The notes under the pieces were generated by a model. The model was not told the DNA's origin, did not search any database, and worked only from the letters and a program-made list of their open reading frames with translations. Below, piece after piece: positions 7,226-17,706 of a stretch of DNA of 64,000 nt. The position numbers and the translations under genes are program-made. Location: assembly GCF_003555545.1 (NCBI RefSeq), contig NZ_CP032157.1, positions 2,732,546 through 2,796,545 on the forward strand. Direction: 5' to 3'. Origin of the DNA: Paraflavitalea soli (GTDB lineage Bacteria; Bacteroidota; Bacteroidia; Chitinophagales; Chitinophagaceae). Every line of letters begins with the position of its first letter. The first letter of the stretch is position 1.

Positions 7226-10200
7226 CTACAACTTAACGATCTTGATCGATGCAGGTGCAGAAGTTCCTTCCAGGTGCAGCATATAGTTGCCGCCGGGCAG
7301 ATTGCCCAGGCTCTTGCTAAACCTGGCATTACCTGCCGGTACATTCCATTGACGAAGCAGGCGGCCATTCATATCCAGCAACTTCATGGTATGATAATGA
7401 TGCCTGCCCTGCTCGATGGTGATCATATCCCTTACAGGGTTGGGATATACCCTGAATGCCAGCGGTGCTTCCGAATCACCGGAGATGGCGCTCTTCATCG
7501 TAAGGGAAGATGCCGTGGTATCAGGCGCCGGCGCTACCGCACAATTATTGATCGCAAACCAGTTGAATTTAAAAGTACCCTGGTACACGATGACATTGGC
7601 ATAACTTATTGCGGGCAATGTCATGGTATCGGTAATAGTTGCCCATTGACCATTGGTATTGGGCAGGCTGATAATGCCGTAGGTGATGCCGGAATTGGCG
7701 AGCTTCACTTTGGCAGGTGCGGTCGTCAATACCCGGAAGCTCACATTGTACTTGCCCCTTACCGGTATAGCCAATACACTGTAACCAAACCAATGGTTAT
7801 AACCCAGCCCCGTAAAGTTTTGTCCACCACTGGTATCCGTAGTAGGTTCCAGGGTAGGCTGGGGAGAACGGGAGGTACTGATCTCCGCTTCATAGCGCTT
7901 ATTAAAAGTGCAGCCATACCCGGTCGTGAAAATAGCCGACCCGCTGATGCTGTCTTTGACTGCTGTAATGGTAAAGGTGCCTGGTTCCATACCGGCCGTC
8001 AGGGCGCCGGCCTGGGTTACACTGTTGCCCGTGCCGCTTACCGACCAGGCAGGACCGGTAAATGCAAAGGCGCTGCCATACTGATCAAATCCCTTGGTGG
8101 TGTATTGCTGGGAAGCGCCAAACGGTACGGTGAGGCTATCCGGCACTACCTTGATGCTGGCCAACTGGGGTGCTGCCAACACTTTTACCTTTCCATAACC
8201 ACTCATGCTATTGTAGGAAGCCTTGACCAGGTAACCACCCGGTGTATAGCTGGCGGTGAACACCCCCTTATAATCCATCACGCCACCAGCAGCAGGCACC
8301 GACCAGGTAAAGGGAATATCAAAACGGCTGCTGTCGCTGCCATAGGCCGCTGCCTTGAACGGTTTCTTTCCGCCCACAAATACACTGGTACTGTCGGGCG
8401 ATACCACAATACGGGAAAGAGAAACGTCTGTAGCCCGCACCACCTTTAGCCAGTTGAAGTTCCAGCCGGAAGTAGCCGCTTGTATCAACAGCGTTTTCTT
8501 ACCACCCGGCATTTGGAAAGGCGCGGAAGTAACGGTGACCCAGTTCTGCCAGCCGCCGCTGGCCGGCAGTGTCATCGTAGTCAGCAAGGTATCACCCATC
8601 ATCACTTTCACGGTACTGGCCGTATTAACAGCTACACGCAGCTGGAGGCGGTAACTGCCCGTCCAGGGCGCTTCGATATCATATTCCATGAAAGAGGTAG
8701 CTCCAATAAAACTGACGTTCAGCACGCCGCTGGTATCCAGCACAGGTTCTGTGCGGGTGGTATTGGAATAATCAAATGCTTCCGCTTCTATCCTTGCAGG
8801 TACCGGTTTGAAATTGGCCACCCTGGTGGTTACATTTGCGGTGGCGGATAAAGTGTCACCATTATAACTAACCGTAGCCGTTACAATACCTGGTGAATGG
8901 ATGCAGGCCAATCCTCCTGCCGTGATGGTATTGCCGCTGCCCGTAATGCTCCATACGGGTGTCAGGCTCATCGGGAAATCATTCTGGTCAAAGATCTTTG
9001 CCGTGTATTGGTATTTCCTGCCGGCTACAATAGCACGGTTGGCCGGACTTACCACGATACTGTCAGGCACCGGCGTGCCCAATCCCTTCTGGTACACCCG
9101 TACATAATCTACCAGCATGCTGTCGGGCCAGTTGGCTTCTGTGATCGCTCCACCCATACCGCCGCCAATGGCCACATTGAGGATGATATGAAATTTCTGA
9201 TCGAAGGGCCAGTCTTTCCAGTCTGTCTTAGGGTTCACATACGTATACACTTTCACCCCATCATAGGTAAAGCGCAGGGAATCCTCACTCCATTCAAGGG
9301 CATATACATGGAATACCGTATCCACATCGGGAATGAGTTTCGACGCGGAAAGATGGCCTCCATTCGTCCAGTTATTGTTTTGCGTATGAACCGTAGAAAG
9401 CACCGTACCGAAATTATTACCTACATGCTCCATGATATCGATCTCTCCGCTCTTGGGCCATGCGCCATACGATTCGGTAGTAGGCATGAGCCAGATGGCT
9501 GGCCAGGAGCCACGTGCCCGGGGCAACCTCGCCCTTACTTCCACCTTACCATAGCGGAAATCGACTTTGTTGCGGGTAATGAGGCGGGCTGAGGACCAGG
9601 GCTCAGTCGTATTGTAATTGGGATAATCCTTTTTACCGGTGATCACCAGGCTGCCGTTGCGTACGCGGGCATTGTCATAAGAGGTATCTGTGTACACCTG
9701 TTGCTCTCCGTTGATCCAGCCTTTGGGACGTGGGTCTACCGTCCATTTGGTAAGATCGGGCAGGCCCGTGCCATTGAAGTGGTCTTCGAAAATAAGCGTA
9801 TAGTTGGGATTGCCTTCAAAAACGACATTGCCCAACGCGAGATACTGCGCAGCGGCAGGACCGGCCAGCTCCGATCCTGCGATGGTAAGCCGGAGAGTAA
9901 AGCGTGAGTAATTGGCCAATGAATTGCCTGCCAGCACTACGTTCACAGTCGTGTCGTTCACTCTTTGCAGACTGTCGATGGTAACGCCGGATGGCAATTG
10001 CGCTGTCCAGTTTGATTTGTTCAATACTGAATCGAACGTATTCTTATGGATGGTGGCCTGGATAACAGCACCCTGCTCCTGCCCCATGACTATCCGCGTA
10101 TCAGCCAGGGTAATATTTACCCGGTCAGGGCTCTGCACCAGGTCGAAATGCAGGATGCCATTGGCCTTCCGGCCATCGATGAATTGCACGACAATCGTAT

Positions 10201-10720
10201 TGAAGTCAGTCCTATTCTTAACGCTTTTAAAATCAAAGACGGCTTCTTCCCAGGTATTGATATTCTTGATGCGATAAGTAAGAAATACCGCTTTGCTGTA
10301 ATTGGTGCCGGGTTGCAGTTTGAACATGACATCTTCTATCACGTTGCTGCGCACCAGCATTTTGAAAACACTGTTGGTGCTCAGGTCAAAGGAGTCGGGC
10401 AGGCTGCAACTGGCCGACATCCATTCAAAGCTGGTGGTGTCTTTGGTAAACCTGGCTACATGCGAACTGGTATTGAGCCCTGTAACAGCAGGATTGGGAA
10501 TATTAAACTCTACTTTACCTGTGGTCGTATTACCGGCATAAAACGTCCACCTGCCGGAGCAGGGGCCATGGCCCTCCATATCATCCAGCAGCAGGAACTG
10601 GGCCTGCCCTTTACTGCACAACAACAGGCAAAACAACAGGAATAAGGTGAACGTTCTGGTGAGCAGGGGCAGCAGTGTAGCGCCTCCCCATATGGGCAAG
10701 TTGATCGTTATCTTTTTCAT
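7226..10720 (-). CDS. Secreted multidomain GH16 beta-glucanase with T9SS sorting domain
   Basis: This 1164-residue enzyme is predicted to cleave beta-1,3 or beta-1,3-1,4 glucans at or outside the cell surface. In order: signal peptide (to about 40), a galactose-binding-like domain (45-200), a linker Ig-like domain (200-300), the GH16 catalytic domain (305-545), a bacterial Ig-like domain (550-632), a CBM6-like domain (640-762), two more Ig-like domains (766-935), a second CBM6-like domain (940-1058), and a Por-type C-terminal sorting domain from VYPNP (1091) to the end. The GH16 signature GEIDIMEH is at 425-432, giving Glu426 as nucleophile and Glu431 as acid/base. It is the last gene of the ECF-FecR-SusC-SusD run, 25 bases after susD, so it is probably the depolymerase of that locus. 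Exact glucan specificity cannot be read from sequence. Confidence 0.93.
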   Translation of the reverse strand: MKKITINLPIWGGATLLPLLTRTFTLFLLFCLLLCSKGQAQFLLLDDMEGHGPCSGRWTFYAGNTTTGKVEFNIPNPAVTGLNTSSHVARFTKDTTSFEWMSASCSLPDSFDLSTNSVFKMLVRSNVIEDVMFKLQPGTNYSKAVFLTYRIKNINTWEEAVFDFKSVKNRTDFNTIVVQFIDGRKANGILHFDLVQSPDRVNITLADTRIVMGQEQGAVIQATIHKNTFDSVLNKSNWTAQLPSGVTIDSLQRVNDTTVNVVLAGNSLANYSRFTLRLTIAGSELAGPAAAQYLALGNVVFEGNPNYTLIFEDHFNGTGLPDLTKWTVDPRPKGWINGEQQVYTDTSYDNARVRNGSLVITGKKDYPNYNTTEPWSSARLITRNKVDFRYGKVEVRARLPRARGSWPAIWLMPTTESYGAWPKSGEIDIMEHVGNNFGTVLSTVHTQNNNWTNGGHLSASKLIPDVDTVFHVYALEWSEDSLRFTYDGVKVYTYVNPKTDWKDWPFDQKFHIILNVAIGGGMGGAITEANWPDSMLVDYVRVYQKGLGTPVPDSIVVSPANRAIVAGRKYQYTAKIFDQNDFPMSLTPVWSITGSGNTITAGGLACIHSPGIVTATVSYNGDTLSATANVTTRVANFKPVPARIEAEAFDYSNTTRTEPVLDTSGVLNVSFIGATSFMEYDIEAPWTGSYRLQLRVAVNTASTVKVMMGDTLLTTMTLPASGGWQNWVTVTSAPFQMPGGKKTLLIQAATSGWNFNWLKVVRATDVSLSRIVVSPDSTSVFVGGKKPFKAAAYGSDSSRFDIPFTWSVPAAGGVMDYKGVFTASYTPGGYLVKASYNSMSGYGKVKVLAAPQLASIKVVPDSLTVPFGASQQYTTKGFDQYGSAFAFTGPAWSVSGTGNSVTQAGALTAGMEPGTFTITAVKDSISGSAIFTTGYGCTFNKRYEAEISTSRSPQPTLEPTTDTSGGQNFTGLGYNHWFGYSVLAIPVRGKYNVSFRVLTTAPAKVKLANSGITYGIISLPNTNGQWATITDTMTLPAISYANVIVYQGTFKFNWFAINNCAVAPAPDTTASSLTMKSAISGDSEAPLAFRVYPNPVRDMITIEQGRHHYHTMKLLDMNGRLLRQWNVPAGNARFSKSLGNLPGGNYMLHLEGTSAPASIKIVKL

Positions 10721-10745: not shown

Positions 10746-12188
10746 TTATAAATGAGGGTTCATCAGGGCATCGGCGCCAGGTATCGGCATCAGGTAATTT
10801 GCTTTGGTGATGGGTTTGGCTGGCGTCAGATCATCGGGATGTTTATTGGCGTTGGCCGCTTCTACCCTTTCCAGGCGAACCAGGTCAAACCAACGGTTCC
10901 ATTCACCGGCAAACTCCCAGGCTCTTTCATCGATCACCGCGTTGATAAAATCATTGCCTGCTAACCCAGCCGGCAGGTCGTTGAGCCCGGCACGCTTACG
11001 CACGGCATTGATTGCAGCATACGCCTCTGTATTGACGCTGCCACTGCGTGCCTGCGCTTCGGCATAGATGAGCAGCACATGGGCATAGCGGATCATAATC
11101 ACGGGATTGTTCGACATGTAAGTAGCCTTGGTACCTGTCTGGATGATAAACTTCTTGTAGTAAGGATGTTTGGTGGTTACATCCTGCCAGGGAATGGTAG
11201 CGCCATTTATTACAAAAGAGGTAGAGAAGGTGGCGTCTTTCCGGCTGCCTTCGGGGAAGTTGTTGAAGAAATTGATCTCCGGGAAAAAGTCGCTCCAGCC
11301 GCCTTCATTTTCAGGCATGGTAGAGAGGCCGTAGAATGAATTATAAGTGATCCATTGTCCCCTTGTGTACAAGGCAAATACATCCTCGTTGGTGCCGCCG
11401 GCAAATATCTTCAGGAAACCACCCTGGTAAAGGTCAAAACCAAAAGCAGTTTTGTTGTCGATCACTTCTTTTGCTTTGGTTGCTGCCAGTGCATATTTGG
11501 AAGCATCGTTGATGGGCCATCCGCCTTGCGTGAGGTACACATCGGCCAGCAGGGATTTTACAGCGCCTTTGTTGGGCCGGCCGGCACTGCGCCGGGCAGT
11601 GGGTACCCAGGCTTCAGCCTTCAACAGATCGGCTTCTACCAGCTTGTACACTTCTGCAACCGGGCTTTTTTTGATCGTGAGGTATTCTGCCTGGTATTGT
11701 TCGGAAGGAATAATGGGCACTTCACCCCAGAAACGGGTAAGCCAGTAATAACACAAGCCACGTAAAAAATAAGCCTCCCCTACAATGGCCTGAACACTTG
11801 CCTCCGTACCATCCTGCACCTTCGTATAGTTGTTGATGATATTGGTAGTGGACTGGATGGTTTTATAACAACCACGCCAAATAGGCAACATCCGGCTGTT
11901 AAGATCAGCCACGCTGAAGCGGTCAAACTCACGGAACTCTTCTTTATTGGAACCAGGATGCGTTGTCAGGTCATCGCCGCCCATCGTCATGGCGATCTGC
12001 GATACCGTAGTGAAGCCGCTTTCCCAGGGCACCTGCAAGCTGCCGTAAGCGCCGGTAAGGGCCGATTCAAGACTGGCCAGGTTGCTGATACCTACAGAGC
12101 CCAACACCAGCCCTTTGGGTTCTTCCGTCAACTGCTTCGAACAAGCAGCAGCGAGGAACAATATCGAAATGAAATAAAGCTTTTGCAT
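10746..12188 (-). CDS. SusD/RagB-family glycan-binding lipoprotein
   Basis: This 480-residue protein has a lipoprotein signal peptide (LAAAC, Cys16), so it is anchored at the outer membrane and probably surface exposed. It shows the SusD/RagB pattern: an N-terminal region starting with LESALTGAYGSL, internal TPR-like helices with EAYFLRGLCYYWLTRFWG, and a C-terminal domain with YAEAQAR and ERAWEFAGEWNRWFDLVRL. It lies 18 bases downstream of susC and 25 upstream of GH16 and should form the lid of the SusCD importer for oligosaccharides released by GH16. Length is normal for the family. Confidence 0.93.
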   Translation of the reverse strand: MQKLYFISILFLAAACSKQLTEEPKGLVLGSVGISNLASLESALTGAYGSLQVPWESGFTTVSQIAMTMGGDDLTTHPGSNKEEFREFDRFSVADLNSRMLPIWRGCYKTIQSTTNIINNYTKVQDGTEASVQAIVGEAYFLRGLCYYWLTRFWGEVPIIPSEQYQAEYLTIKKSPVAEVYKLVEADLLKAEAWVPTARRSAGRPNKGAVKSLLADVYLTQGGWPINDASKYALAATKAKEVIDNKTAFGFDLYQGGFLKIFAGGTNEDVFALYTRGQWITYNSFYGLSTMPENEGGWSDFFPEINFFNNFPEGSRKDATFSTSFVINGATIPWQDVTTKHPYYKKFIIQTGTKATYMSNNPVIMIRYAHVLLIYAEAQARSGSVNTEAYAAINAVRKRAGLNDLPAGLAGNDFINAVIDERAWEFAGEWNRWFDLVRLERVEAANANKHPDDLTPAKPITKANYLMPIPGADALMNPHL

Positions 12189-12206: not shown

Positions 12207-15200
12207 TTAAAAGCTAAGCGTACACCCACCTGTAAAAGTCCGGGCATTGGGATAAGAACCATAATCAATACCCTGGCGTATATCACCGGCTGAAGAATTG
12301 GCTTCCGGGTCAATACCTGTATAGTTAGTAAGGGTCCATAGATTGGTGGCGCTCACAAATAGTCGAAGCCCAGCTATATTACCCAGGGCCTTGCGGGGTA
12401 CCTCGTACGAGAGGCTGAGGTTTTTCAACCGCAGGAAATCGGCCTTTTCCAGGAAACGGGTAGACTGCGTAAAGTTCCTGTTCGTAGAACTGAAGGCCGG
12501 AATATCTGAAGTCTCATTGACACCAGGAATATAACGGTACTTAATATCCACATAGGTAGCTTCGCGGGCATCACCGCCAAGATACATGGCAGCAGCTTTG
12601 TTATAATTGAGCTTATCAAAGCCAAGCATGGCGTGAAAGAATACATTGAGGGAAATGCCTTTATAACTAACCGTATTGTTCCAGCCAAAAGTAGTGGTGG
12701 GAACACCAGTACCTATTACACCATAATCACTGGCATCAATTACATTGTCGCTATTTTTATCCAGGTAGCGGGAGTCGCCGGGCCTGGCGCCAAAGGGTCC
12801 TGCTTTACCTTCCTCGCCGGGTTTCCAGGTACCCAGGTAAGTAAGCCCCCAGATAGCGCCCAGCGGCTGACCGGGCATCACCACAAATTCCGATTGGGGC
12901 GACATGCCACCGCCGATCTTGCGGTTGTTGGGATCAAAGATGATGGCCCTTTGCCCACTGGAGATTACGCGGTTCCTGACAAATGAAGCATTGAACCAAC
13001 TGGTCCAGGTAACCGGCCCTTTATCAAATACCGCCGCCTCGATAGCAAACTCAAAACCTTTATTCTGTACTTCACCTGTATTGCGGGTAATGACATTACC
13101 GCCCAGGTACATAGGAAGCGTTTCATCCAGCAACAGGTCACGTGTATCCTTGATGAAGTAATCGGCTGTAAGAGAAATACGTCCATTCAAAATACCGGCC
13201 TCCAAACCAATGTTCTTCTGCTCTGTCGTCTCCCATTTCAGATCAGGGTTGCCGATATTGCCCAATATGATACCCGTCTGCGAAGCACTGTTGGTAAACG
13301 AAGCCACCCGGTTGGAATAAGAAGAAAGCGTGCTGTAGGCCTCCACACCCTGGTTGCCGGTGAGGCCCCAGCTGCCACGGACCTTGAGGGTGCTGAATAC
13401 ATTGAGGTCGCTGATGAAGGATTCGTCCGACAATATCCAACCAACGGAAGCAGAAGGGAAATAACTGTATTTATTATCGTCTGCAAACTTCGAAGATCCA
13501 TCCCGCCTGATGGTAGCAGACAAGAGATACTTATCCTTATATGCATAATTAACCCGGCCCATCAGGGAGAACAAGGCCCATTTGGAATAACCGGAGGAAG
13601 GATTGCCCGGTGTACCCAATCCTATATTATTCCACATGAAGGATTCATAATTGAGATTGGAACTACCCACCGCCATAAAGTTGTAAGTAGACTGCTGGTA
13701 CTCCATAACGGCCGTAGCATCGAGGCTATGTCCGCCAGTGAAGGTCTTGCGGTAGCTAAGCGTATTGGTATTCTGCAACCTCAGCTCTTTGTTGGAACGC
13801 AGGCTGGTAGTAGAGGTATTGGAATTGACCACCTTGCTGGCAAAACCCTTGTTTTCATAACCCATGTAATTGGCGCCAAATTGGAGGTTGAGGTGCAGGC
13901 CCGGAATGATCCGGTACTTGAATCCACCGATCACATTGGCCAGCATACGCTCTGTTACCGTTAACTGATCGGTAGTGAGGGCTACAGGGTTGAAAAAAAC
14001 AGAGCTGACCGGATCGGCGATGGTATAACCACCCATGGATGTGCGCACCGGTACAGTGGGCGACCAGGTGATGGCTTGCGCCAATGGACTGTGCGGACCA
14101 TCAGCAGGAATATCAATATTCTGCGAGGTACTGTAAGAACCCAGTATGTTAAGGAAAGCCGATACTTTTTCGCTTAGCTTGGCATTGATATTGGAGCGGA
14201 GGGTATAGCGTTTGAGAAAGGAATTCCTGATCACGCCATCCTGGTTGAGGTAGTTGCCGGAAATAAAGTAATTGCCTTTATCCGTGCCGCCTGCCAGGTT
14301 GAGCAGGTATTCCTGCGCACCTGCATTACGGAATATCTCATCCTGCCAGTTGGTACCGCCTTTCACTTTGAACTCATCGATCTGCGCGGTAGTAAATGGC
14401 AAGGCAGTACCTGATGCCTGGGCATGTGCATTGACCGTTTCGGCAAACTCTGCAGCATTCAGCAGGTCCAGTTTCTTCAGCACTTCTGCTGAGGAGAAGC
14501 GGGCCGTGAAATTGACTTTCAGACTTCCTTTCACTCCTTTCCTGGTAGTGATGATGATCACGCCATTGGAACCACGGCTTCCATAGATAGCGGTAGCCGA
14601 TGCATCTTTCAACACCTGCAGGCTTTCAATGTCTTCCGGGTTAATGGAAGCAAAGTCAGCTCCCACAAATCCATCTACCACATACAGCGGGCCATTGTCG
14701 CCATTAATGGAGTTGGAACCGCGTATGCGTATACGCACACTGCCACCGGGAGCACCGGTTGCATTGGTCACCTGCACACCAGCCGCACGGCCTTGCAGGA
14801 TCTGGTCGAGCCGGCTCACCGGCTGTTCCCGGAAAGAGGCGGCAGAAACGGTGGTAATAGCGTTGGTCAGTGTACCTTTCTTTTGCTCGCCATACCCGAT
14901 CACTACCATTTCTTTCATGCTGGAAGGAGCAGCCTCCAGGGTCACGGAGATGGCAGTTCTTCCTTTCACCGCTATCTCCTGTTCATCAAAACCCAGGGAG
15001 GAGATGATCAATACCGCATCGCCATTGGCCACAGAGATCTCATACTCACCCTGCTCATTCGTAACTACACCTTTGCCCGTGCCTTTTACCTGGATAGTAG
15101 CCCCGGCTACCGGATCGCCTTTATCGTCCGTCACCCTGCCCTTAATGGTTATATCTTCCGCTATATCCACCGTAGTCACTGCGGTCACTACCGGCGCCTT

Positions 15201-15587
15201 GCGCTTTACAATAATGGTTTTACCACTCATGGCATAAGTAAGCGGCTGGTAGCGGAAACATTGCTCCAATACCTTATCGAGCGGTGCATTTTGCACCTGG
15301 AGCGTCACTGTTTTAGCAATGGATAATTGTTCATCGGTATACAGGAAATTATAGCCGGTCTGTTTCCTGATCTCTTTAAAAGCTTTGTCCAGTGGCGTAT
15401 TGCGCAGGGAGAGCGTTACAGTTTGTGCAATGCCTTCGGCCTGCACCTGCAGCATGGCAATCGTCATCAAAAGCACAGTTAGTTTCATGATCAGTACCGA
15501 TTTTGCAAGTAATCGTGGGTAGTTTTTACCGCTGGGAATCCCGCAAACGCGGGATGGCGCGCTTTGGGAAAAAAGCGTCAAAAGCAT
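12207..15587 (-). CDS. SusC/RagA TonB-dependent receptor with STN signalling domain
   Basis: This 1126-residue outer-membrane importer starts with a signal anchor/peptide, then an STN secretin/TonB signalling domain (about 55-130, VTLSLRNTPLDKAFKEI), a carboxypeptidase-regulatory-like repeat (about 148-215, IKGRVTDDKGDPVAGAT), the plug (from EMVVIGYGEQKKGTL, about 227) and a long beta-barrel ending in Phe. The STN domain fits signalling to the adjacent FecR/ECF pair. Start choice is uncertain: the ATG at 15587 gives a 33-residue extension before MKLTVLL, which begins at 15488 and alone makes a good signal peptide. The extension (LLAKSVLIMKLT) looks like that of related SusC proteins, so I kept it. 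A plus-strand promoter -7 box overlaps the 15587 start codon. Confidence 0.93.
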   Translation of the reverse strand: MLLTLFSQSAPSRVCGIPSGKNYPRLLAKSVLIMKLTVLLMTIAMLQVQAEGIAQTVTLSLRNTPLDKAFKEIRKQTGYNFLYTDEQLSIAKTVTLQVQNAPLDKVLEQCFRYQPLTYAMSGKTIIVKRKAPVVTAVTTVDIAEDITIKGRVTDDKGDPVAGATIQVKGTGKGVVTNEQGEYEISVANGDAVLIISSLGFDEQEIAVKGRTAISVTLEAAPSSMKEMVVIGYGEQKKGTLTNAITTVSAASFREQPVSRLDQILQGRAAGVQVTNATGAPGGSVRIRIRGSNSINGDNGPLYVVDGFVGADFASINPEDIESLQVLKDASATAIYGSRGSNGVIIITTRKGVKGSLKVNFTARFSSAEVLKKLDLLNAAEFAETVNAHAQASGTALPFTTAQIDEFKVKGGTNWQDEIFRNAGAQEYLLNLAGGTDKGNYFISGNYLNQDGVIRNSFLKRYTLRSNINAKLSEKVSAFLNILGSYSTSQNIDIPADGPHSPLAQAITWSPTVPVRTSMGGYTIADPVSSVFFNPVALTTDQLTVTERMLANVIGGFKYRIIPGLHLNLQFGANYMGYENKGFASKVVNSNTSTTSLRSNKELRLQNTNTLSYRKTFTGGHSLDATAVMEYQQSTYNFMAVGSSNLNYESFMWNNIGLGTPGNPSSGYSKWALFSLMGRVNYAYKDKYLLSATIRRDGSSKFADDNKYSYFPSASVGWILSDESFISDLNVFSTLKVRGSWGLTGNQGVEAYSTLSSYSNRVASFTNSASQTGIILGNIGNPDLKWETTEQKNIGLEAGILNGRISLTADYFIKDTRDLLLDETLPMYLGGNVITRNTGEVQNKGFEFAIEAAVFDKGPVTWTSWFNASFVRNRVISSGQRAIIFDPNNRKIGGGMSPQSEFVVMPGQPLGAIWGLTYLGTWKPGEEGKAGPFGARPGDSRYLDKNSDNVIDASDYGVIGTGVPTTTFGWNNTVSYKGISLNVFFHAMLGFDKLNYNKAAAMYLGGDAREATYVDIKYRYIPGVNETSDIPAFSSTNRNFTQSTRFLEKADFLRLKNLSLSYEVPRKALGNIAGLRLFVSATNLWTLTNYTGIDPEANSSAGDIRQGIDYGSYPNARTFTGGCTLSF

Positions 15588-15594
15588 ACATTTG
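15563..15594 (+). promoter_or_regulatory. Plus-strand promoter facing away from susC
   Basis: TTTG at 15563-15566 and TACATTTG at 15587-15594 (exact TAnnTTTG) are separated by 20 bases, the consensus Bacteroidota -33/-7 arrangement. There is no plus-strand protein gene downstream; a terminator follows about 80 bases later. It therefore appears to drive a short RNA. Confidence 0.6.
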
Positions 15595-15599
15595 TTGTA

Positions 15600-15677
15600 A
15601 TTAGGGTTAATAAATGGATTGTCAAGTTTATGGACCCGATCTTAGCCGGGGGTGGTACCAACACTCCCGGTTTTTTT
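15600..15677 (+). ncRNA. Candidate antisense small RNA opposite the susC leader
   Basis: A consensus promoter (15563-15594) and a consensus intrinsic terminator (15646-15677) on the plus strand bracket about 75-80 bases with no ORF, in the fecR-susC spacer. The transcript would be fully complementary to the leader of the minus-strand susC mRNA if that mRNA starts beyond about 15680. Its 5' end would lie only about 13 bases from the susC start codon. Antisense RNAs at this place in ECF/anti-sigma-controlled SusC loci are known from Bacteroides (DonS type), where they repress the locus. The 5' end is estimated from the -7 box and could move by a few bases. Existence is inferred; no expression data are available here. 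Confidence 0.55.
15646..15677 (+). terminator. Intrinsic terminator on plus strand in fecR-susC spacer
   Basis: A 9-bp stem (15646-15654 with 15662-15670, one G:T pair) with a 7-base loop is followed directly by seven T (15671-15677). The T run is only on the plus strand, so it cannot terminate the minus-strand fecR transcript. No annotated plus-strand gene uses it. Confidence 0.75.
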
Positions 15678-15741
15678 GGGCCCTGCGATCATACGTTGTG
15701 CGTTAAGGGCTCATATGGCAGTTTTTAGGTGATAGGTATGT

Positions 15742-17007
15742 TTATGGTGTTACAATGATCTTCCGTCCGCTGATCTCAAAATGGATCTCACCGGTTTGTT
15801 CCATCATGTCCAGCACCTGCGATACAGGTACATTGCTGGATATTCCTCCCCTGAAATGCGCATTGGGAATATTGCCCCGGTATTCCACTTCCACATCATA
15901 CCAGCGCGCAATCATGCGCATGACGGTATAGATATTATTCCCATCGAACTGAATTTGCCCGTTCTTCCAGGCCATCACGGCTTCTACATCAACCGTCTGA
16001 ACCATTATTGGGGAAGATGCATTGTATTGGGAGGATATAGGTACAGCGGCTTGTTGTCCAGGGCTTAGAATTACAGATTGTTGCAGATCAGTGGTCGCAG
16101 CATTATCGATTGCTGATTGCCGACTGCCGACCTTCACCTTCCCTTCCAGCAAGGTGGTCTTGATCGTTGTTTCATCACTATACCCATTGATATTGAAATG
16201 CGTGCCCAGCACTTCTACCTGCATACCGTTGAGATTGACACGGAAAGGCATGGCGGCATTTTTCTCCACTTCAAAATAAGCTTCACCGGTAAGCGTCACT
16301 TCCCTGGTCTTGCCATTGAACGCAGTGGGATAATGCAGGCTGCTGGCAGCATTGAGCCACACGCGGCTGCCATCCGGCAGGGTTACATAGAACTTGCCGC
16401 CATTGGGAGTAGTAATAGTATTATACAAAGTGGCCGTAGGGGTCACGTTGTCCGTTGCTTCATAAGCCAGTTGCCCGTTGGCCAGCTTGACTACCCGGGT
16501 ACTACCTTGCTGGCCCAGTGTACCATTCTGTGCATTCTCCAGGATGATCTTTGAACCATCTGCCAGGATGAGTACGGCTTTGTTGCCGCCCGGCTGTATA
16601 TCGTTTTGGGGGATAGGATTTTGTTGTACGATCGGGGCCTGCGGATTCCCACGGAATAACCACCAGGCGCCAGCCGCCAAAGTAAGTACCAATATAGCAG
16701 CGGCGGCATATTGCCACCAGGGGCGGCGCGATGGCAGGTTAATGACCGTAGTATCGGGGGATGATGTGGCAGGCACTGGGGTCTGCAGCTTTGTCCATAC
16801 TTCTTCAAAAGCAACCCGGGTATTGCTTTCTGCAGTGGCCGGCCCGGCTATCTCCTCTTCATACAGGGAGGCCAGCATTTGATCCAATAATGCGCGGTTG
16901 CGTTCGTCCTGAACAAGCACCCTCAATTGATTGATCTCCGCGGGCGTTAGTTTTTGATCATTGAGGAACTTTTCGAATAATTCCTGGAAGAGGTCCTGTT
17001 TTGACAT
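15742..17007 (-). CDS. FecR-family anti-sigma factor
   Basis: This 421-residue protein is built as a Bacteroidota FecR: a cytoplasmic N-terminal anti-sigma region (1-90), one TM helix (about 97-116, YAAAAILVLTLAAGAWWLF), a periplasmic FecR domain (about 195-290, with TPNGGKFYVTLPDGSRVWLN and GEAYFEV) and a C-terminal DUF4974-like STN-facing domain (about 345-421, ending in a KIIVTP strand). It should hold the upstream ECF sigma factor inactive until the STN domain of the adjacent SusC reports substrate. It lies 51 bases after the sigma gene and 154 bases before susC; that gap contains the antisense RNA candidate. Confidence 0.92.
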   Translation of the reverse strand: MSKQDLFQELFEKFLNDQKLTPAEINQLRVLVQDERNRALLDQMLASLYEEEIAGPATAESNTRVAFEEVWTKLQTPVPATSSPDTTVINLPSRRPWWQYAAAAILVLTLAAGAWWLFRGNPQAPIVQQNPIPQNDIQPGGNKAVLILADGSKIILENAQNGTLGQQGSTRVVKLANGQLAYEATDNVTPTATLYNTITTPNGGKFYVTLPDGSRVWLNAASSLHYPTAFNGKTREVTLTGEAYFEVEKNAAMPFRVNLNGMQVEVLGTHFNINGYSDETTIKTTLLEGKVKVGSRQSAIDNAATTDLQQSVILSPGQQAAVPISSQYNASSPIMVQTVDVEAVMAWKNGQIQFDGNNIYTVMRMIARWYDVEVEYRGNIPNAHFRGGISSNVPVSQVLDMMEQTGEIHFEISGRKIIVTP

Positions 17008-17058: not shown

Positions 17059-17706
17059 TTACAAGGACGCATAAGAAAGAAGAGGGAGAGCATGCGCTCG
17101 AAAATAAATTTTGACAAGCTCACCTGCCACCAGCATCACCAACAACTGGTCATTATTATATTGGGCCAGGTATTTCCTGATAGCATACAGCGCCCGCACC
17201 ATATAAGATTTTGACGTAATACGGGTAATATTCATGCGCAGGGCTATCTCGGCATGGGTAAGGCCTTCAATCCTGCTTAATCTGAATACCTGCTGCAGCT
17301 GCGGGGGCAGGTTATCGATGGCCCGGTGCATTAGCTTCTCCAGCTCTTTATATTCCGTTTTTTCCTGGGGAGAGATGGCATCGTCGCTAAAGTAGGCAGT
17401 CAGGTAATCCTCATTGCTGGCAGTAAATACATGCTTGCGGAGGTGGTCTATGACCAGGTGGCGGGAAACGGTGAAAATAAAAGCGCTGAAATTGGTGACG
17501 GCCGGCAGCTTATCGCGGTTGTTCCAAATTTTAATGAAGGTTTCCTGGGCGAGGTCTTTGGCCAGTTCGGGGCTTTTGGTGAGGCGCAATCCTATTCCAT
17601 ATACCTTGTCCCAGTAGCTTTCAAATATTTGCCGGTAAGCCTCCTGGTCACCAGCGGCAATGCGGAGCAGTAGTTCCTGTTCGTTGTATGGTTGTACGAA
17701 TGGCAA
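17059..17706 (-). CDS. ECF RNA polymerase sigma factor (Bacteroidota sigma-70 type)
   Basis: This 215-residue protein has sigma region 2 (about 26-95; ESYWDKVYGIGLRLTKSPELAKDLAQETFIKIW) and region 4 (about 143-195; LPPQLQQVFRLSRIEGLTHAEIA followed by the recognition helix). A hydrophobic C-terminal tail, common in this subfamily, ends the protein. With the adjacent FecR and STN-SusC it forms a trans-envelope signalling set controlling the GH16 locus. It is the first gene of the minus-strand run. No clear housekeeping promoter was found upstream; autoregulation through its own promoter type is possible but unseen. Confidence 0.92.
   Translation of the reverse strand: MPFVQPYNEQELLLRIAAGDQEAYRQIFESYWDKVYGIGLRLTKSPELAKDLAQETFIKIWNNRDKLPAVTNFSAFIFTVSRHLVIDHLRKHVFTASNEDYLTAYFSDDAISPQEKTEYKELEKLMHRAIDNLPPQLQQVFRLSRIEGLTHAEIALRMNITRITSKSYMVRALYAIRKYLAQYNNDQLLVMLVAGELVKIYFRAHALPLLSYASL

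Follow-up and report, generated by a model that had tools for sequence, protein, structure and literature searches.

Does the short spacer between fecR and susC in a glycoside hydrolase family 16 (GH16) locus of Paraflavitalea soli also hold a small RNA gene on the strand opposite the transporter? We analysed a 64,000-nt stretch of contig NZ_CP032157.1 (positions 2,732,546 to 2,796,545; the window), part of an 8.44 Mb single-contig genome, in which an extracytoplasmic function (ECF) sigma factor gene, fecR, susC, susD and a GH16 gene lie in tandem on the minus strand (Pfam). On the plus strand of the spacer a GC-rich stem and seven T lie about 50 bases beyond a promoter-like box. We put the probability at roughly 0.78 that this is a cis-encoded antisense RNA gene masking the susC translation start, comparable to DonS of Bacteroides. 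Computed from the sequence were a promoter-like box, a terminator, a fold, a strand polarity and their conservation. The elements concerned, in window coordinates, are as follows.

15563..15566, plus strand: antisense -33 box TTTG, lying opposite susC codon 8 and the base that follows it
15587..15594, plus strand: antisense -7 box TACATTTG, whose first T complements the A of the susC ATG
15599..15677, plus strand: predicted antisense RNA of about 79 nt, placed from the box and the terminator
15604..15637, plus strand: stem-loop 1 (SL1), the 5' stem-loop of the predicted RNA, from its fold and from arm swapping over 59 loci
15644..15672, plus strand: stem-loop 2 (SL2), the terminator stem-loop, 11 bp including two G.U pairs that this strand alone can form
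15671..15677, plus strand: seven-T tail
15588..15741, minus strand: fecR-susC spacer and susC leader, partly complementary to the predicted RNA
12207..15587, minus strand: susC, the putative target, with STN, CarbopepD_reg and Plug domains (Pfam) and its ATG at 15587-15585 (orthologues)

A preliminary description of the window had reported the promoter TTTG-N20-TACATTTG, which is exact at 15563-15594, and a hairpin with seven T at 15646-15677. That hairpin is present: a Watson-Crick stem CCGGGGGTG/CACTCCCGG at 15646-15670 lies directly before the T run, and with the G.U pairs the stem reaches 11 bp. We set the RNA start 12 nt on, give or take a few nucleotides, counting from the base that opens the -7 box. 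The predicted length is then about 79 nt (about 77 nt was proposed earlier), and the predicted RNA is fully complementary to the susC leader. The claim that no open reading frame (ORF) lies between the box and the terminator holds only loosely, as two frames cross the terminator, one with 30 codons from an ATG (15614-15706, plus strand) and one with 54 codons from a TTG (15564-15728, plus strand); the former is probably non-coding. SL1 had gone unnoticed, as had the fact that the -7 box coincides with the start codon of susC. That start is most likely 15587, because the N-terminal extension recurs in orthologous proteins, where its length varies without loss of frame; the -7 box would therefore overlap the start codon, and the RNA would begin some 12 nt before it on the susC side of reading. 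The window contained two copies of TTTG-N20-TACATTTG against 0.03 expected from shuffles, and since the second exact copy (8807-8838, plus strand) lies antisense within the GH16 gene, probably by chance, the pattern by itself is no proof. A loose scan for terminators and sigma-70 promoters was uninformative at the locus (3 terminators found vs 4.6 expected in 5 kb), so significance rests on comparisons across loci.

Conservation of the promoter/terminator pair had been set beforehand as a test. We searched 195 family genomes with the first 150 SusC residues and chose orthologues by the SusC protein alone, which gave seven clear ones, window included, in three genera (E <=6.1e-44; next match 6.8e-33), all with fecR upstream (44-100% identity). 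Every orthologue carried TA(C/T)ATTTG on the ATG and an antisense stem with a T tail, so that -7 box and terminator were kept in 7/7, and a detector for stems with T tails (the strict detector, described below) found a sense-strand terminator in 0/7. At N20 spacing the -33 box read, by eye, TTTG in six orthologues and CTTG in the seventh. All seven folded as two stem-loops on the antisense strand, which was stabler than the sense strand. Both-sided changes occurred at 4/11 terminator pairs among the seven, and at 6/20 pairs of the structure in the five gap-poor orthologues, a value equalled by 1/500 shuffles with a structure derived from the same sequences, which favours it; SL2 held five of these changes, in 11 pairs. 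Slid structures dropped to 29-49% paired in the same five.

Recurrence beyond orthologues was assessed in fecR spacers, sampled as FecR_C matches with their downstream DNA: 39 from the same genome (39/44 matches, one having no next gene and four in SusC-sized frames being left out) and 64 from four genus mates (64/208, drawn with some omissions from the upper part of the match list). FecR_C of Pfam also matches SusC-sized frames near fecR in this genome (near 8374017, 7812574, 955537 and 4059831), probably through the STN domain. The strict detector rewards Watson-Crick pairs alone, scores all mismatches alike and asks for a stem and a T tail. It found antisense hairpins in 43/103 genus spacers and sense hairpins in 2 (Fisher 3e-13). 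In other genera of the family, where 49 loci (29 from a search, 20 hand-picked) gave 48 after one proved too short, the count was 21/48 antisense vs 0/48 sense. The regions upstream of 165 long control ORFs (300 codons and above) gave 0 antisense and 5 sense matches, and random genome stretches held 52 per 800,000 strand-bases. The hairpin with its T tail antisense to susC is not due to chance. The conservation test named in the preliminary description came out in its favour, and the pair recurs across fecR spacers. Its DonS-type logic is supported as far as layout and conservation go, with expression and repression inferred; its full promoter stands in the window and most orthologues and does not hold generally. 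An energy-based, looser scan of the 39 own-genome loci (-13 kcal/mol or better) gave 19 antisense and 4 sense hairpins. For the analyses below, 47 hairpin loci were counted, the 43 strict ones plus L015, L024, L032 and L043 from the energy-based scan; four antisense hairpins with weak T tails (L013, L020, L044, L047) were left uncounted.

Which strand folds can be read from the pairs that are not Watson-Crick. Scored on the T-tail strand, G.U outnumbered A.C by 36 to 8 in the genus, 12 to 1 in the family and 14 to 2 in Bacteroidales (62 to 11 pooled), compared with 17 to 9 in terminator-like matches elsewhere in the genome. Such an excess on the antisense strand is as expected if an antisense RNA folds, and by this polarity the folding RNA is the plus-strand one. 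Two spacers, L106 and L170, had T runs on both sides of the hairpin and could stop transcription both ways.

The hairpin was also tied to the susC start codon. As start motif we took YRAANNTATG with its ATG in frame, which on the other strand reads as TAnnTTYR over the ATG, and found it in 34/47 hairpin loci, 10/56 loci without a hairpin and 1/168 control ORFs (Fisher tests 3e-8 and 1e-27); start codons were picked with a preference for the motif by the same rule in all three groups, a preference that inflates the consensus logo of 53 loci. The predicted RNA has the consensus 5' end GTTTTGGTT, which complements the region around the susC translation start. These data bear on the possibility that TACATTTG is no promoter at all and simply complements a susC translation start context, CAAANNTATG. 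The box coincides exactly with the ATG, most loci lack a -33 box, and the context occurs without a counted hairpin in the 10/56 loci above and without a detected one in 19/37 Bacteroidales loci, all of which such a reading would expect. It does not account for the tracking of the hairpin by the context, for a terminator distance set from the box (below) or for TTTG at N20 in 6/7 orthologues, and we consider it improbable. This alternative and those that follow are not exclusive, and their odds overlap. Under the -33 box itself, Gln8 in the variable SusC N-terminal extension was kept in 7/7 orthologues, followed by Ser in five (by eye); as the Gln8 codon and the next base, within codons 8-9 (15561-15566), complement the box, the protein sequence may be shaped in part by the antisense promoter.

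Over 63 loci the predicted RNA measured 70-147 nt (median 94, quartiles 86 and 103; 79 nt in the window). Spacer length ranged from 95 to 422 nt, and the distance from RNA start to terminator had a standard deviation of 15 nt and a slope of 0.08 on spacer length, vs a slope of 0.92 for the distance from terminator to fecR. The terminator thus follows the box and start codon and not fecR, which assigns it to the box. A terminator that merely stops antisense transcription arising within susC, shielding the fecR/sigma operon while its RNA stays inert, would fit the placement of antisense matches in the spacer, with none inside the last 200-400 nt of fecR covered over 151 loci (loci fetched as stretches contain only about 200 nt of fecR). 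Spacing fixed to the susC start is not what a shield would give, and a shield needs neither the covarying SL1 arms described next nor an association of box and hairpin; it is an outside chance in our estimate.

The segment before the terminator is structured as well. In 59 non-redundant loci its median z score was -2.28 antisense and -1.09 sense, with the antisense fold stabler in 51/59, and the whole window RNA reached z -2.8 to -3.6. The 5' arm of SL1, complement of the susC start region, pairs with the stretch directly before the terminator. MAFFT/RNAalifold on 24 diverse loci recovered SL2 only, with both-sided changes at 8/9 of its pairs; the alignment missed SL1 because its length varies, so SL1 was tested by swapping arms among loci, a measure of covariation independent of alignment. 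Own arms paired at -9.65 kcal/mol vs -6.79 for swapped arms across the 59 loci, and 0/2000 permutations did as well, compared with 196/2000 for an internal control segment. In three genus genomes (L030, L122, L126) the 5' segment and terminator were nearly unchanged, middle letters differed and the hairpin still folded.

Several results weigh against the reading as an antisense RNA gene. Strict matches were missing from 60/103 genus spacers. The looser scan found sense hairpins in L027, L028, L029 and L040, so the near absence of sense ones is partly an effect of the strict detector. The window SL1 segment alone is weak (z -1.1), and only 1/9 SL1 pairs changed on both sides in the five orthologues. 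A -33 TTTG occurred in 6/53 non-redundant loci (N19 in five, N20 in one), and a full promoter like that of the window is therefore the exception. In the leaders, AACC[ACT] ahead of an ATG in frame was found in 35/47 hairpin loci, 29/56 loci without a hairpin and 33/161 control ORFs; its frequency without a hairpin means that part of the 5' conservation is due to translation initiation. A combined pattern of box and RNA 5' end gave 56 matches in 43 of 296 class genomes against about 94 for a reversed control, that is, no enrichment. In B. thetaiotaomicron both correlation and anti-correlation of antisense RNAs with susC are reported in the part of the source covered (PMC10994844). SL1 arms on the sense strand also did better than swapped ones (-6.25 vs -5.10 kcal/mol, z -4.8, 0/2000 permutations). 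This last result, with the mirror-image hairpins that a sense RNA could form, suits a folded susC mRNA leader in which the T run arose by chance. A T tail found mainly antisense (43 to 2 strict, 19 to 4 in the looser scan), the polarity of G.U over A.C and the stabler antisense fold in 51/59 loci and 7/7 orthologues all speak against that reading, to which we give hardly any weight. AACC[ACT] is perhaps a translation enhancer in susC leaders of the genus.

From these elements we infer that the RNA is made and where exactly it starts, that it pairs with its target in the cell and represses susC, and that a threshold operates, as follows. A housekeeping-type Bacteroidota promoter with its -7 box over the susC start codon would fire away from susC; the RNA of about 79 nt would end at the intrinsic terminator within the spacer, short of the fecR end, and fold into SL1 and SL2. 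Its whole length complements the susC mRNA leader, beginning some 12 nt before the ATG, and it would pair with its own mRNA beside the start codon, so that ribosome entry would be blocked, the mRNA would decay, or both. The GH16 locus would be kept low until the ECF sigma/FecR pair made susC mRNA in excess of the antisense RNA. The remaining genes of the locus, assigned by Pfam, are these.

17059..17706, minus strand: ECF sigma factor
15742..17007, minus strand: fecR, anti-sigma factor
10746..12188, minus strand: susD
7226..10720, minus strand: GH16 enzyme with CBM6/CBM35 and a secretion tail

Repression might come from the convergent promoter and not from the RNA, through colliding polymerases. 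The promoter-like box on the start codon, directed against susC transcription, is what such interference would use, and we rate it as unlikely, if less so than a shield, since collision requires neither a fixed RNA length nor a covarying fold. For the antisense RNA itself, full complementarity to its own leader leads us to expect mainly local action. The duplex of its first 45 nt with that leader was computed at -76.4 kcal/mol, vs a median of -16.8 for non-cognate susC leaders and -15.8 for control leaders (Mann-Whitney p 0.0003), and 21/210 non-cognate pairs, roughly double the number expected, passed the threshold set at 5% of controls. That slight excess and the conserved 5' end would suit a FopS-like trans-acting family whose common 5' end hits many susC genes; given the small shift beside the cognate value, and a 5' end held within a stem, we think this very doubtful.

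How does the predicted RNA compare with known systems? The founding study of DonS is reportedly that of Cao et al. 2016. DonS loci have ECF sigma and anti-sigma genes, as does the polysaccharide utilization locus in the window. In the parts of the sources covered here, the DonS family comprises cis-antisense RNAs of 78-128 nt that lower susC expression, and DonS was joined in 2020 by ten further antisense RNAs of B. thetaiotaomicron (PMC7366714); by 2024 those associated with polysaccharide utilization loci in that species numbered 32, and for one RNA in B. fragilis repression had been validated (PMC10994844). The window RNA would likewise lie opposite susC at its 5' region, and its 79 nt, with both ends predicted, fall within the DonS range. 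A box on the ATG, a structured segment and a terminator occur in Bacteroides loci too (see below), which are probably of DonS type. The window belongs to another taxonomic family, and the comparison sets DonS as described beside a window known from sequence. Antisense RNAs of this kind being already known in Bacteroides, the window RNA would be filed with them by its layout.

FopS/GibS of B. thetaiotaomicron, which act with RbpB, share a small RNA with a 3' terminator hairpin, and FopS acts at the susC translation start, where its pairing beside the start codon stops translation (PMC11697453, in the part covered). FopS differs in acting in trans through a single-stranded 5' seed, whereas the 5' end of the window RNA would lie in the SL1 stem. 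Rfam gave nothing credible at the locus, whether with the gathering threshold or with E values as high as 5; the presence of FopS in that release was not checked. A further likeness is to attenuators of the pT181 type, in which a hairpin antisense RNA covers the leader. These need a terminator in the sense leader, which the strict detector found in 2/103 genus spacers and 0/7 orthologues, none in the window locus; its absence from the window locus and orthologues speaks against attenuation. In the looser scan 4/39 loci had a sense terminator, and of these L027 alone also has a counted antisense hairpin. For Chitinophaga we found no report of an antisense RNA at susC in the open literature among the matches listed. 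In Flavobacterium, 287 transcribed regions antisense to genes are described in a study that cites the founding DonS paper, with no susC antisense RNA named in the part of the source covered (PMC9723704).

Outside the family, 26 spacers from genomes that we presume, from 16S letters, to be Bacteroidaceae-like (27 of 30 loci obtained, one dropped) were not enriched, with 2 antisense and 2 sense hairpins and one G.U and one A.C pair. One of them had the full layout, and its SusC N-terminus matched 80 named Bacteroidales loci, of which 61 were used and 19 lacked the start region or upstream DNA. Among these 61, a set biased towards the layout because its members are relatives of a single clear case, the start motif occurred in 37, and an antisense hairpin in 18/37 loci with the motif vs 2/24 without. 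The 18 loci with both include Bacteroides, Dysgonomonas, Alistipes, a Tannerellaceae and a Prevotella member. Predicted RNAs at 20 Bacteroidales loci of this kind measured 74-134 nt (median 88.5), overlapping the sizes reported for DonS, and the segment before the terminator had a median z of -2.21 antisense and -0.58 sense at 16 non-redundant loci. In B. acidifaciens, where 30 loci less 7 SusC-sized frames and two at contig ends left 21 fecR spacers, we counted an antisense hairpin in four (three with the start motif), a sense hairpin in one and the motif in six.

We consider it an even bet that the layout is an old, class-wide device, an antisense promoter built into the transporter start codon that gives each paralogue a private two-hairpin RNA brake (about -76 kcal/mol on its own leader, about -17 on foreign ones), evolving with the gene in Chitinophagales and Bacteroidales. 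In the literature covered here, B. fragilis and B. thetaiotaomicron are the species with described antisense control of susC. Should such control also operate at about 4/10 of the fecR-linked transporters sampled from another family in the class, it would be a general layer of glycan-use control and not a gut speciality, and it would explain how dozens of paralogous loci are silenced one by one. The anatomy (a box on the ATG, covarying SL1 arms and a terminator at about 94 nt) supplies a search rule.

The combined pattern of box and 5' end was dropped as a marker, its reversed control being commoner; among 29 of its 30 fetched matches, three open SusC-like frames and one further looks alike, and its three matches in the window's own genome all lie in fecR-susC spacers. 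A search of relatives with the spacer DNA matched 4/29 genomes including its own, mostly as short pieces, and gave the first hint that promoter and terminator recur.

Two short frames drew our attention. The ATG of the 30-codon plus-strand frame at 15614 is present at the equivalent place in 5/7 orthologues (read by eye); it is shifted out of frame in orthologue G004 and missing there in G543, and in the window locus and G004 the terminator is reached before any stop. On the minus strand, ATGTATG contains another ATG in a different frame, 4 nt ahead of that of susC, which opens a frame of 21 codons (15526-15591). This overlap occurs in 6/7 orthologues (read by eye), perhaps merely through conservation of TACATTTG.
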